From Candidatus Sungiibacteriota bacterium (lineage in GTDB: Bacteria > Patescibacteriota > Minisyncoccia > Sungbacterales > HO2-52-23), in assembly GCA_016180435.1 (NCBI GenBank), contig JACPBG010000005.1, positions 1 to 37,012 on the forward strand: DNA of 37,012 nt, written 5' to 3'. Shown in pieces: positions 7,186-22,268 of the stretch. The position numbers and the translations under genes are program-made. A model generated the notes under the pieces. That model ran no database searches and was not told where the DNA came from. It saw only the letters and a program-made list of their open reading frames with translations. Position 1 is the first letter of the stretch. Every line of letters starts with the position of its first letter.

Positions 7186-7441
7186 ACAACCAGCATGAAT
7201 TAGGCGATAATAGTTATGCTGGTTGGTTTGCGTAAAATTTCAGGGTTTCCTCGCCCCGTTAGAAGTCGCGCTCGCGATGGGGTCGCGAGTCCGAAGGACC
7301 GCGGCGCGGCTACTTCTAACGGGGCAAGTTGATAACGGTGTGCCAATTTTACCCCGTTAGATAGCAGAGCATCTAACGGGGCGGGCAATTCTTTCAGAAC
7401 CTGGTTCCCCGCCTGCGCCGAGGCTACGGCGGGCAGGCATT
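7186..7441. repeat. Gene-free stretch packed with hairpin elements
   Basis: No gene is visible from 7093 to 7497. It holds an AACCAGCAT/ATGCTGGTT inverted repeat (about 7189-7227), a CCCCGTTAGAAG/CTTCTAACGGGG element with inner GC-rich repeats (about 7253-7325), a CCCCGTTAGAT/ATCTAACGGGG hairpin (about 7352-7382) and a CCCGCC/GGCGGG hairpin (about 7409-7436). The CCCCGTTAG arm is shared with the element at 10437-10475. Confidence 0.6.
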
Positions 7442-8557: not shown

Positions 8558-8576
8558 GCCGGGGTAGCTCATCTTG
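8558..8576 (+). pseudogene. 5' part of a tRNA-like remnant, interrupted by the GIY-YIG cassette
   Basis: GCCGGGGTAGCTCA at 8558-8571 matches the acceptor and D-stem of a tRNA (compare GCCGGGCTAGCTCA of tRNA-Phe at 8895). The continuation AGCAGAGCGCGGATT appears only after the cassette, at 8868-8882. No anticodon 3' side, T arm or acceptor 3' strand is found, so the tRNA is a broken remnant. Confidence 0.6.
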
Positions 8577-8595
8577 TCCCCCACCTATCAAGGAT
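8577..8595. repeat. 19-bp inverted repeat, left end of GIY-YIG cassette
   Basis: TCCCCCACCTATCAAGGAT at 8577-8595 is the perfect reverse complement of 8846-8864. The pair brackets the GIY-YIG gene and lies within the tRNA-like remnant. Confidence 0.9.
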
Positions 8596-8603
8596 AAAAA
8601 TTT

Positions 8604-8867
8604 ATGTATTACGTATATATTCTTCAAAGTAAGCGAGATGACTCTATTTATATAGGTTATACCCCCGATTTAAGAAAAAGGATGCAAGAGCATGAAAAAG
8701 GACGTGTATTTTCTACGAAAAACATGCGACCGATTGAGTTAGTATATTACGAAGCATACAAAGATAAATCTGATGCAGTAAAACGTGAACAGGCGTTAAA
8801 ACTCCACAAGAAGGCACTTGCTCAATTGAAAAATAGAATTTCACAATCCTTGATAGGTGGGGGATGA
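8604..8867 (+). CDS. GIY-YIG endonuclease domain protein
   Basis: 87 residues. The signature is MYYVYILQS followed by YIGYT (GIY-YIG halves), then LRKRMQEHEKGRV with the catalytic Arg, and a Glu in the MRPIELVYYEAY strand, as in the UvrC/homing-endonuclease superfamily's compact single-domain (YhbQ-like) group. The enzyme would nick or cut DNA. The gene is bracketed by a perfect 19-bp inverted repeat, the right arm of which encodes its C-terminal LIGGG, and the whole unit splits a tRNA-like sequence in its D-loop. This layout suggests a small mobile cassette, which is inference. Confidence 0.88.
   Translation: MYYVYILQSKRDDSIYIGYTPDLRKRMQEHEKGRVFSTKNMRPIELVYYEAYKDKSDAVKREQALKLHKKALAQLKNRISQSLIGGG
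8846..8864. repeat. 19-bp inverted repeat, right end of GIY-YIG cassette
   Basis: ATCCTTGATAGGTGGGGGA, the exact reverse complement of 8577-8595. It overlaps the last codons of the GIY-YIG gene. Confidence 0.9.
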
Positions 8868-8882
8868 AGCAGAGCGCGGATT
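8868..8882 (+). pseudogene. Continuation of the tRNA-like remnant after the cassette
   Basis: AGCAGAGCGCGGATT corresponds to the end of a D-loop, the GAGC side of the D-stem and the 5' strand of an anticodon stem. The match stops where the inverted repeat around tRNA-Phe begins. Confidence 0.5.
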
Positions 8883-8894
8883 AAAACCCAAACT

Positions 8895-8966
8895 GCCGGG
8901 CTAGCTCACCGGCAGAGCGCTGCCCTGAAGAGGCAGGCGTACCCAGTTCGACTCTGGGGCCCGGCA
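8895..8966 (+). tRNA. tRNA-Phe(GAA)
   Basis: A 72-base cloverleaf: acceptor GCCGGGC/GCCCGGC, D-stem GCTC/GAGC, anticodon stem CTGCC/GGCAG with loop CTGAAGA (anticodon GAA), T arm CCCAG-TTCGACT-CTGGG and discriminator A. CCA is not encoded. The acceptor stem extends outward in DNA: AAACCCAAACT upstream pairs with AGTTTGGGTTT downstream, giving a long closing helix in the precursor. Confidence 0.93.
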
Positions 8967-9013
8967 GTTTGGGTTTAACAAGGAACATGGCGTAGGGAGT
9001 TTGACTTGTCCCG

Positions 9014-10611: not shown

Positions 10612-10706
10612 AAATTTTACAGAGTAAAATTTTGCGAGGCTCGCTTCGCCCACAGGGCGAGCGGCCCGCACTCTATTTTAGGTATTCTGCAATTTAGCAA
10701 AATGAA

Positions 10707-11213
10707 ATGGATATTATTTCACATGGTTTGTGGGGCTCCATAGCTTTCGGCCGTAAAAACAAAAGAAGTTTTTGGAAGGCTTTCTTATTCGGGATCGCGC
10801 CCGATTTTTTGGCGTTTGCCCCGCTTTTTATTCTGATTTTTTCAGGGATCATTGAGCGCCCGCCTATTCCTCCGGTGGAGCCGCCGGATACCTCGCTTAT
10901 CCCCCAATTTGTTTATCAGATATATAATGTAACTCATAGTTTGATAATATTCGTTGCTGTTTTCGGATTATTGTGGCTGATTTTACGGAGGCCCGTATGG
11001 GAATTGGGCGCGTGGGGTTTGCATATACTTCTTGATATACCCACGCACTCCTATAAATTTTTCCCTACGCCTTTTTTGTGGCCGATTTCGGATTTTAAGG
11101 TTAATGGCGCGGGCTGGGCAGAACCGTATGTTTTCTTTCCTAATGTAATACTGCTTTTGATCCTTTATTTGTGGTTTTATTTTATACGACCGCGGATTAA
11201 AGCGGCGAAATAA
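10707..11213 (+). CDS. DUF457/YdjM-like membrane-bound metal-dependent hydrolase family protein
   Basis: 168 residues with four hydrophobic segments. It carries conserved His/Asp motifs typical of this family: MDIISHGLWG at the N-terminus, GIAPDFLAF, NVTHSLIIF and HILLDIPTHS. These residues are thought to bind metal near the membrane; substrates are not established. The ATG at 10707 starts exactly at the DIISHG motif. Transcription ends near the nested inverted repeat at 11214-11318. Confidence 0.78.
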   Translation: MDIISHGLWGSIAFGRKNKRSFWKAFLFGIAPDFLAFAPLFILIFSGIIERPPIPPVEPPDTSLIPQFVYQIYNVTHSLIIFVAVFGLLWLILRRPVWELGAWGLHILLDIPTHSYKFFPTPFLWPISDFKVNGAGWAEPYVFFPNVILLLILYLWFYFIRPRIKAAK

Positions 11214-11318
11214 ATCCCCACACCTTCCTGCGAAGTATTAAACCCCGTAGGAAGGATTTTTATAACGCCCATTCGTCCCCGTAGCAAGCTATGGGGTATT
11301 CTGGGAAGGTGTGGGGAT
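11214..11318. repeat. Outer 15-bp inverted repeat enclosing inner hairpins
   Basis: ATCCCCACACCTTCC (11214-11228) and GGAAGGTGTGGGGAT (11304-11318) are perfect arms around inner CCTTCCTGC/GTAGGAAGG-like and CCCCGTAGC/GCTATGGGG hairpins. The left arm begins on the base after the stop codon of the preceding gene. The same layout, ending GATAAAC, recurs at 28053-28155. Confidence 0.8.
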
Positions 11319-11431
11319 AAACATTCCGTTAATCATATTAAATGAATTCTCCAGCTATGGGCTCACGCCCGTGTTTTTCCCGCCTTTGGCGAGGCTCGCC
11401 CCTGGCGGCTGGTGAGAGGATAAAGCATTGA

Positions 11432-12298: not shown

Positions 12299-12370
12299 AA
12301 CATTAAAAAATAGCATCGGTCTTTACCGTCGGAAAACGGTGGGTTCGCCTAATGGTAGGGCACTGGTCTT

Positions 12371-12494
12371 CCCCGTACTAAAAATTTGGAAGGGTGCCTG
12401 AGTGGTTGAAAGGGACGGTCTTGAAAACCGTTATATCCGCAAGGGTATCGTGGGTTCGAATCCCACCCCTTCCGATCCAAATTTTAGTACGGGG
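12371..12494. repeat. Inverted repeat directly flanking tRNA-Ser
   Basis: CCCCGTACTAAAAATTTGG (12371-12389) pairs with CCAAATTTTAGTACGGGG (12477-12494) with one bulged A. It brackets tRNA-Ser and shares the first two G of that tRNA. Confidence 0.88.
12388..12474 (+). tRNA. tRNA-Ser(UGA), nested
   Basis: 87 bases, class II tRNA: acceptor GGAAGGG/CCCTTCC, D arm CCTGAGTGGTTGAAAGG, anticodon stem ACGGT/ACCGT with loop CTTGAAA (anticodon TGA), long variable arm, T arm GTGGG-TTCGAAT-CCCAC, discriminator G, no encoded CCA. It looks fully functional. It lies between the two halves of another tRNA. Confidence 0.95.
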
Positions 12495-12635
12495 CAAGGA
12501 AAACAAGCGGGAGAAATCCCTTGCAGGTTCGAGCCCTGCACCCACCGCTTTCCGACGGAACAAAGAAAACCGGCGAAGAAATCCCCCTTTTAATTAAACT
12601 GGAATTTTAAGGCAAAGTGCGGTATAGTTATATTC

Positions 12636-14720: not shown

Positions 14721-14858
14721 GCATGTCAATATAGTTTTTAGACACGGACGATTTTGCCCAGCGGCAAAATCGCCTAAGGGTCGGACAAGTTTTCTCCGCC
14801 CTTGGCGTAGAACCATGCAAACTTGTCCTCCCATTGTCTAAAAACCATATTGATATGC
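14721..14858. repeat. Cloverleaf-like nested inverted repeat between infB and rbfA
   Basis: 24-bp outer arms (14721-14744 and 14835-14858; two non-Watson-Crick positions, one of them G-U) enclose a perfect hairpin CGATTTTGCC/GGCAAAATCG (14749-14772) and a second stem GGACAAGTTT/AAACTTGTCC (14783-14828) that itself contains CGCC/GGCG. It starts on the base after the infB stop. It could end infB transcription or be processed. Confidence 0.85.
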
Positions 14859-20873: not shown

Positions 20874-21058
20874 ATGCCAATCTACAAATCTTATGCCAAT
20901 TTAGCTAATTGCGAATCGTTATTATTCGAGCTTGTGGCTAGGCACTTTGGGCCGCCATCCCGGCCGACTTAGGTCGGCCTAGGGATCGAGAATATGCGTT
21001 AAGGGTATTTTCTCGATTTCACCCGAAGAATATTCATTCGCAATTTGTAGATTAGCAT
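20874..21058. repeat. Nested inverted repeat between rplL and the HTH gene
   Basis: Right arm 21036-21058 matches the left arm 20874-20915 apart from one substitution and an 18-base insertion in the left arm, which itself repeats ATGCCAAT. Inner hairpins: GGCCGACTTAGGTCGGCC and a TCGAGAATA/TATTTTCTCGA stem. It probably ends rplJ-rplL transcription. Confidence 0.7.
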
Positions 21059-22117: not shown

Positions 22118-22149
22118 AAGACCTCCTGCAAAATAACATTTCTACTGCA

Positions 22150-22250
22150 ATTTCAGAATTTTGGCTGCAAACGGCTCATCGCTCGTTGGCGTATATATAC
22201 CATATATGCCGCCTCGCGCTTCGCCATTTTCGCACAAAATTCTGAAATTT
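22150..22250. repeat. Inverted repeat in the rplJ leader
   Basis: ATTTCAGAATTTTG (about 22150-22163) and CAAAATTCTGAAAT (about 22236-22249) form perfect 14-bp arms around a region with inner pairing (GGCGTATATA/TATATGCC). It lies between the L10 leader core and the rplJ translation start. Confidence 0.7.
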
Positions 22251-22268
22251 CGTCACGAAAGCTTATTA

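Follow-up and report, generated by a model that had tools for sequence, protein, structure and literature searches.

The tRNA-Ser(UGA) locus in the window analysed here (the whole stretch of 37,012 nucleotides, from the genome denoted G000) is best explained by successive insertions of tiny elements into the gene for tRNA-Ser(UGA). These elements would be relatives of others that encode a GIY-YIG nuclease, would be driven by that nuclease and would survive by supplying the cognate tRNA. A probability of roughly 0.7 was assigned to this reading. Coordinates are positions in the window, and all features with coordinates lie on the forward strand.

A complete tRNA-Ser(UGA) was called at 12388-12474 by both ARAGORN and Rfam (61.7 bits in Rfam) and is the sole UGA-reading tRNA-Ser found in a survey of G000. 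It is bracketed by its own terminal inverted repeat, of which the left copy (CCCCGTACTAAAAATTTGGA, 12371-12390, its final 3 nt being the tRNA start) pairs with 12476-12494; the right copy, TCCAAATTTTAGTACGGGG plus a 4-nt tail CAAG, extends over 12476-12498. To either side lie the halves of an interrupted tRNA-Ser(UGA), at 12338-12370 (5' half, 94% identity to the intact gene of the congeneric genome G001) and at 12499-12547 (3' half, 97% identity). Both the D arm and the T arm are retained in these halves, and their acceptor stem is perfect (GGTGGGT at 12338-12344 with ACCCACC at 12540-12546) and lengthened by 10 bp (CCGTCGGAAA / TTTCCGACGG). An initial annotation had described this much correctly: a complete tRNA-Ser(UGA) with its own inverted repeat inside an interrupted tRNA-like gene, the paired acceptor stem with both arms, and the ten-pair outer extension.

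An uninterrupted version of the outer gene, which the initial annotation had suggested seeking in close relatives, is present in G001, where the anticodon arm reads CTGGTCTTGAAAACCAG, that of a tRNA-Ser(UGA). The flanks of the insert, 12318-12370 (53 bp, 94% identity) and 12499-12558 (60 bp, 97% identity), are contiguous in G001 and 128 bp apart in the window. Because G001 has this uninterrupted copy, the inserted element (terminal repeat, tRNA-Ser(UGA), terminal repeat and CAAG tail) could be delimited to the 128 bp at 12371-12498, in place of the 12373-12500 first proposed, with CTGGTCTT^GAAAACCAG as the empty site. It splits the anticodon loop after CTT and before GAAAAC and, relative to G001, left no duplicated target bases. 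The rejoined loop reads CTTGAAA and not CTTCCAA, and ARAGORN typed the joined window halves as Ser(tga); the empty site and this typing rule out the assignment of the outer gene to tRNA-Gly(UCC). Its 15-base variable region, which had been counted as a weakness, is CGGGAGAAATCCCTT, an ordinary long variable arm of the serine type. The G-A mismatch reported in the anticodon stem does exist, but as a later change (ACCAG in G001, ACAAG in the window) by which a stem pair was lost. Inner and outer genes are divergent in sequence. Of the two interpretations originally offered, the evidence supports the insertion of a tRNA cassette into another tRNA. It does not support a functional interrupted tRNA-Gly with an unusual maturation route, the outer gene being the same isoacceptor as the insert and having lost a stem pair. 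The nested arrangement is genuine, but there is no spliced tRNA-Gly.

A further layer was overlooked in the first reading. The interrupted tRNA-Ser appears to have been brought by a middle-layer element (TACCGTCGGAAAAC ... GCTTTCCGACGGAACAAA, 12324-12564; its counterpart in G001 ends in TCCCGTAGGAAAGC..GCTTTCTGACGGGG), inside which the younger element lies and whose flanks are anticodon-arm remnants of a third, decayed tRNA-Ser(UGA). The 5' remnant CGGTCTT (12317-12323) and GAAAACCGGCG (12565-12575) together make up the anticodon arm of tRNA-Ser(UGA), read as CGGTCTT|GAAAACCG, and the full 3' remnant GAAAACCGGCGAAGAAATCCCCC (12565-12587) resembles GAAAACCAGCGGGAGAAATCCC of G001 (19/22). The nested stretch folds far better than shuffled sequences (z = -6.4), with a long stem in the predicted fold, and the window holds 7 inverted-repeat clusters of such quality against 0.15 expected by chance. 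Upstream genes are shared by G001 and the window (a CYTH gene, 84% over 64 residues; a YdjM-like gene, 74% over 34 residues), and the two loci are therefore taken to be the same; their downstream sides differ. G001 also has both element types, but nested the other way round: the type found innermost in the window (ends CCCGCACTAAAAATTT, start GGAAGGGTG) lies outside in G001, where it is split by the window's outer type. On this comparison, the simplest history would be that of one locus invaded repeatedly by related elements.

The tRNA-Phe locus of the window is interrupted twice. The candidate autonomous form, a GIY-YIG element with a 24-bp end stem (CTTGTCCCCCACCTATCAAGGAT..ATCCTTGATAGGTGGGGGATGAAG, 8573-8869), lies in the D-loop of a decayed tRNA-Phe, and this D-loop (GCTCATTGGCAGAGC) is uninterrupted at the syntenic locus of G001. 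Its junctions, CTTG|TCCCCCACC..GGTGGGGGA|TGAAG, are the same as those of tRNA elements, and almost nothing is encoded besides the nuclease, a complete single-domain GIY-YIG endonuclease of 87 aa (8604-8867; Pfam PF01541, E = 5.9e-18) whose stop codon falls within the right tail. The 5' remnant of the host (8558-8572) matches the 5' half of the G001 tRNA-Phe, and a middle remnant (CAGAGCGCGGATT, 8870-8882) and a 3' remnant (GAACATGGCG.., 8983-9004) were also identified. Between the latter two, the anticodon loop of this broken host contains a tRNA-Phe-carrying element (8883-8982; tRNA-Phe between AAAACCCAAAC and GTTTGGGTTTAACAAG), in which ARAGORN called the tRNA at 8894-8967; working tRNA-Phe is supplied by this element. 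Elements of the same kind elsewhere in the window comprise an intergenic non-coding element (CTCGCCCCGTTAGAAG..CTTCTAACGGGGCAAG, 7250-7328), a bare short hairpin (TTTACCCCGTTAGAT..ATCTAACGGGGCGGG, 7348-7388) and a second intergenic non-coding element with ends of the GIY-YIG type (TCCCCACACCTTCC..GGAAGGTGTGGGGA, 11213-11319). As a separate observation, the G001 tRNA-Phe has a genuine group I intron of 219 nt in its anticodon loop (L062, G001:C42), and its locus is that of the window's GIY-YIG and tRNA-Phe elements.

Comparison of the junctions indicates that ends are shared by elements with different cargoes. Ends of the form CCCCG(Y)AC(TAAAA)../..GTRCGGGG(C/T)AAG (also CCCCG(Y)ACTAAAA..TTTTAGTRCGGGG) are common to Ser, Glu, Val, Lys, Leu and Ile cargoes; ends CCCTCCCACC..GGTGGGAGGG (CTTGCCCTCCCACC../..GGTGGGAGGGTGAAG) are common to Thr, Met, Ile, Val and Ala cargoes; and CCCCGTTAGA../..TCTAACGGGG occurs with Gln, Thr and non-coding hairpins. 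Ends of the type of the left serine repeat recur beside tRNA-Ile in the genome G029 (L087) and around tRNA-Glu, -Val and -Lys (L120, L121 and L122). The consensus of the terminal inverted repeats, C-rich on one side and G-rich on the other, is YTTRCCC..GGGYRAAR. Intact D-loops read CAGYTGGTAGAGC and filled sites CAGCTTG|..|TGAAGTAGAGC, so that in D-loops the CTTG is probably borne by the element and 3-4 loop bases seem to have been replaced. The Ser anticodon loop itself contains CTTG as a target, and because CTTG can derive from either target or element, the exact 4-nt ends of the elements are uncertain. The absence of target duplication rests on the Ser insert and its empty site; possible duplications are TTTA at the Leu element and CAAG at an 8-copy non-coding element.

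Small GIY-YIG genes are present in 23/23 genomes of the order, at 1-14 per genome. Inverted repeats closely flank 22 of the 29 GIY-YIG ORFs examined in relatives, compared with 4 of 111 control ORFs at these loci (Fisher p = 7e-16), and the active-site residues Y, G, R, H and E are kept in 18/18 relatives. The solved structures nearest to the 87-aa protein are those of UPF0213 (1zg2/1ywl), and SLX1, which is a structure-specific endonuclease, matches only marginally (E 0.19); as far as similarity can assign it, the nuclease fits a single-domain, UPF0213/SLX1-like GIY-YIG endonuclease. Further copies of GIY-YIG elements are located in 23S rRNA and at rnpB, either adjacent to it or inside it, and the genome G019 has a GIY-YIG element and a tRNA-Ala element with nearly identical ends. 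The flanks of GIY-YIG elements pair no better than swapped flanks (6.7 vs 6.4 crossing pairs). General targeting of DNA hairpins or loops was rejected as unsupported, as the GIY-YIG elements as a set are not in detectable hairpins.

These data also bear on a different account of the movement, in which another recombinase, or natural DNA uptake with repair, moves the elements and the GIY-YIG protein is a passenger, a hitch-hiking homing endonuclease. The GIY-YIG genes do occur as cargo between the same end type as tRNAs and non-coding hairpins; G000 contains a single GIY-YIG element of this kind vs many tRNA elements. On the other hand, GIY-YIG is the recurrent protein between such ends, in the proportions given above, and its active site is conserved. 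A Y1 (HUH) transposase was ruled out as the mobiliser, since PF01797 had 0 matches in G000 in a search that was positive in E. coli and 4 other controls. We regard the passenger account as unlikely, though it deserves to be taken seriously.

Two observations on GIY-YIG elements are recorded in their own right. At L069 (G005:C1:294250-295320), tRNA-Ser halves enclose two GIY-YIG genes together with an intact tRNA-Ser(UGA), and every junction has the repeat CCCGCCAGAGGCGGGTCCGCCTTTGGCGG. In three genomes (L142, L162 and L168), GIY-YIG elements have similar flanks (AACC..|GCTCAATTTTGTAGCG), which suggests a common, conserved insertion site.

Under the preferred reading, successive insertion of nuclease-driven elements, each tRNA element is a unit of about 100-240 bp with terminal inverted repeats around one complete tRNA, inserted on the same strand into one of three loops (anticodon, D or T) of a gene that encodes that tRNA. 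Such elements are probably non-autonomous relatives of the ~290-bp GIY-YIG-only elements with the same kind of ends, and we infer that they are mobilised by the GIY-YIG nuclease, which would cut the target or the hairpin ends of the element and so bring about insertion. The host gene would be broken and then decay, and the carried tRNA would become both the working copy and the next target. Given that tRNA genes are mostly single copy, an insertion would survive only with a cognate tRNA aboard; any other insertion into a single-copy tRNA gene would be lethal, which would explain the cognate cargo. Sense orientation would allow the inner tRNA to be expressed from the host promoter, and cleavage of the long stem formed by the terminal repeats would presumably release it.

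The arrangement recurs among the tRNAs of G000. Rfam reported 29 tRNAs above threshold, and the census was built on these search loci; by anatomy, about 10 of the 29 sit within remnants of the same tRNA, namely tRNA-Ser(UGA), Phe, Thr(UGU), Thr(CGU), Met, Leu(UAG), Glu(CUC), Gln(CUG), Ile and Ser(GCU). For tRNA-Lys and Thr(GGU), the left junction only was found. Inserts occupy the anticodon loop in Ser, Phe, Thr, Leu and Glu, the D-loop in Met, Thr, Lys and Ser(GCU), and the T-loop in Gln. Similarity of flanks, measured against shuffled flanks, supports nesting on both sides for Leu, Glu, Ser(GCU) and Ile and on one side for Thr(CGU), Gln, Thr(UGU) and Lys; the remaining cases are junction readings. 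For Ser, Phe and Met these statistics are too weak because the outer copies have diverged, and junction anatomy was used in their place. tRNA-Val, Asn, His, Gly(UCC), Pro(UGG) and Arg(ACG) are absent from the Rfam census of G000 (97.5% completeness), which may reflect assembly gaps or interruption beyond detection.

Beyond this genome, a gapped D-loop junction pattern that required no tRNA was found in 84,980 species at five places, all in Patescibacteria (two Portnoybacteria, one Sungiibacteriota and two unclassified), and a complete same-strand tRNA lies inside 5/5. A right-junction pattern gave 16 matches in 384 genomes of the class vs 1 for the reversed control, all of them tRNA D-loop junctions and four identical to gapped-pattern places; a tRNA is inside 14 of the 16 and a 21-bp bare hairpin in the other 2. 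At L183, Thr(UGU) is nested three levels deep. A left-junction search across the phylum added five more genomes outside the class, mostly with short hairpins beside intact tRNA-Thr. Among hosts with clear boundaries that ARAGORN could type, the rejoined host is the isoacceptor of the cargo for Ser UGA, Gln CUG, Ile GAU, Val GAC, Val CAC, Thr GGU, Thr UGU and Ala GGC, a count from which anticodon-loop hosts rejoined with guessed fill-ins (Thr-UGU, Glu, Lys) were left out, their types being meaningless. Comparison across genomes shows insertion, common ends, cargo that is cognate and in sense orientation, and an association with GIY-YIG. The assemblies are mostly metagenomic, but the nesting recurs in independent ones; cases in genomes related to one another do not count as independent events.

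The condition of the hosts bears on the idea that the nested tRNA acts as an intron, with the outer tRNA spliced and functional and both tRNAs obtained from one transcript. Some outer halves are perfectly preserved (the Val, Thr and Ala cases), the stem between insert and outer gene is extended, and group I introns do occur in tRNAs of the clade, as in G001 tRNA-Phe. Yet the insert has no Rfam intron match, and a group I intron was ruled out, as RF00028 had no match in the window in the same search that finds the one in G001. The outer serine gene has lost its anticodon-stem pair and the outermost layer is only a remnant; because the outer gene is the same isoacceptor as the inner one, splicing would be unneeded, and as that gene is redundant and decaying, splicing is unlikely. 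Hosts of inserts without a tRNA (GIY-YIG or bare hairpin) also fit poorly with splicing: an intact copy is nearby for the D-loop Phe case in the window, for L180/L181 and for L186-L188, and at L189 and L190, with no intact copy in the stretch read, the acceptor stem of the host is broken, its 5' strand being unpaired. We consider the intron account very improbable. Equally improbable is that the nested copies arose locally, through replication slippage or template switching, with the repeats as by-products. Such duplication would suit the long identical stretches between some inner and outer copies (Thr CGU in G000, L137/L173, the Lys 5' half) but not the divergent inner and outer Ser genes, nor the same ends flanking unrelated tRNAs as well as GIY-YIG ORFs and non-coding hairpins in different genomes.

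Several known systems are similar in part. IS200/IS605 and REP/RAYT elements have no target duplication, hairpin-shaped ends and a 4-nt junction motif, all of which are seen here too; the difference is that their Y1 transposase was not detected in G000. Integrative elements at tRNA genes compensate for the tRNA gene they disrupt, but here a whole tRNA lies within a ~130-bp loop insert instead of an integrase-restored 3' end. Like MITEs and DNA transposons, the elements are small and have inverted-repeat ends (12371-12390 with 12476-12494, and also at 8573-8869), and non-autonomous copies share ends with a protein-coding form; unlike MITEs and DDE elements, they show no target-site duplication at the resolved site, the candidate enzyme is a GIY-YIG nuclease and not a DDE transposase, and the gene carried is that of the target itself. 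Group I and archaeal tRNA introns share the anticodon-loop location and differ in that, here, no catalytic core was found, a complete tRNA of the same isoacceptor lies inside and the host decays. Non-intron insertions (IVS), many of them short, occur in CPR rRNA genes, where GIY-YIG ORFs are confined to such insertions (PMC11270868). The elements described here are short as well, lie in structured RNA genes, often at a stem-loop, and may or may not include a GIY-YIG ORF, and GIY-YIG elements with inverted-repeat ends were found here in 23S rRNA; the serine insert is likewise an inverted-repeat insertion within the loop of an RNA gene. A further trait of IVS is removal from the transcript by RNase III; for the serine locus, a long stem is predicted. 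In contrast, the main text of PMC11270868 makes no mention of tRNA or inverted repeats, and no replacement copy of the host RNA is reported for rRNA insertions. The proposed tRNA-carrying element is characterised by a complete tRNA of the host's isoacceptor, on the same strand, between shared inverted repeats, and this is what was found. No description of nested tRNAs or of inverted-repeat GIY-YIG elements was found in the open-access literature.

Insertion with a cognate tRNA would provide a route for invading and replacing single-copy essential tRNA genes without loss of function. It would account for the tRNA fragments, broken or duplicated, that occur in genomes of Patescibacteria, and would give the many small GIY-YIG genes of this group a possible role. 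Interrupted copies will be overlooked or assigned the wrong type when tRNAs are annotated in these genomes. More tentatively, and at somewhat under even odds, Patescibacteria may harbour a mobile class in which the autonomous form is a hairpin-ended, GIY-YIG-only unit of ~290 bp and non-autonomous members carry whole tRNAs, home to the cognate gene and so replace the tRNA set repeatedly. If true, this unit would be among the smallest autonomous mobile elements proposed, and GIY-YIG-driven mobility could be tested directly in E. coli with the ~290-bp element.

Other repeats were observed in G000. A sequence of ~80 bp follows tRNA-Gly(GCC) in the window (10612-10690) and is found again after tRNA-Gly(CCC) on contig 11 (L132, G000 C11), where the copy runs straight into a second small GIY-YIG gene. 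A repeated non-coding element of ~130 bp (CCCCGTCACCAAAATTTTGAC..GTCAAAATTTGGTGCGGGGCAAG) without a match in Rfam is present at L112, L113 and L115-L119 (G000 C1, C7 and C8), mostly embedded in a larger conserved sequence (GACACGACTCG..CTAAGGGTCGG .. CCTCCCATTGTCT); a related form of this larger sequence, lacking the inner ~130-bp element, is located in the window at 14726-14853. Two more long inverted repeats of other sequence types are intergenic in the window, at 20874-21058 and 22147-22251.
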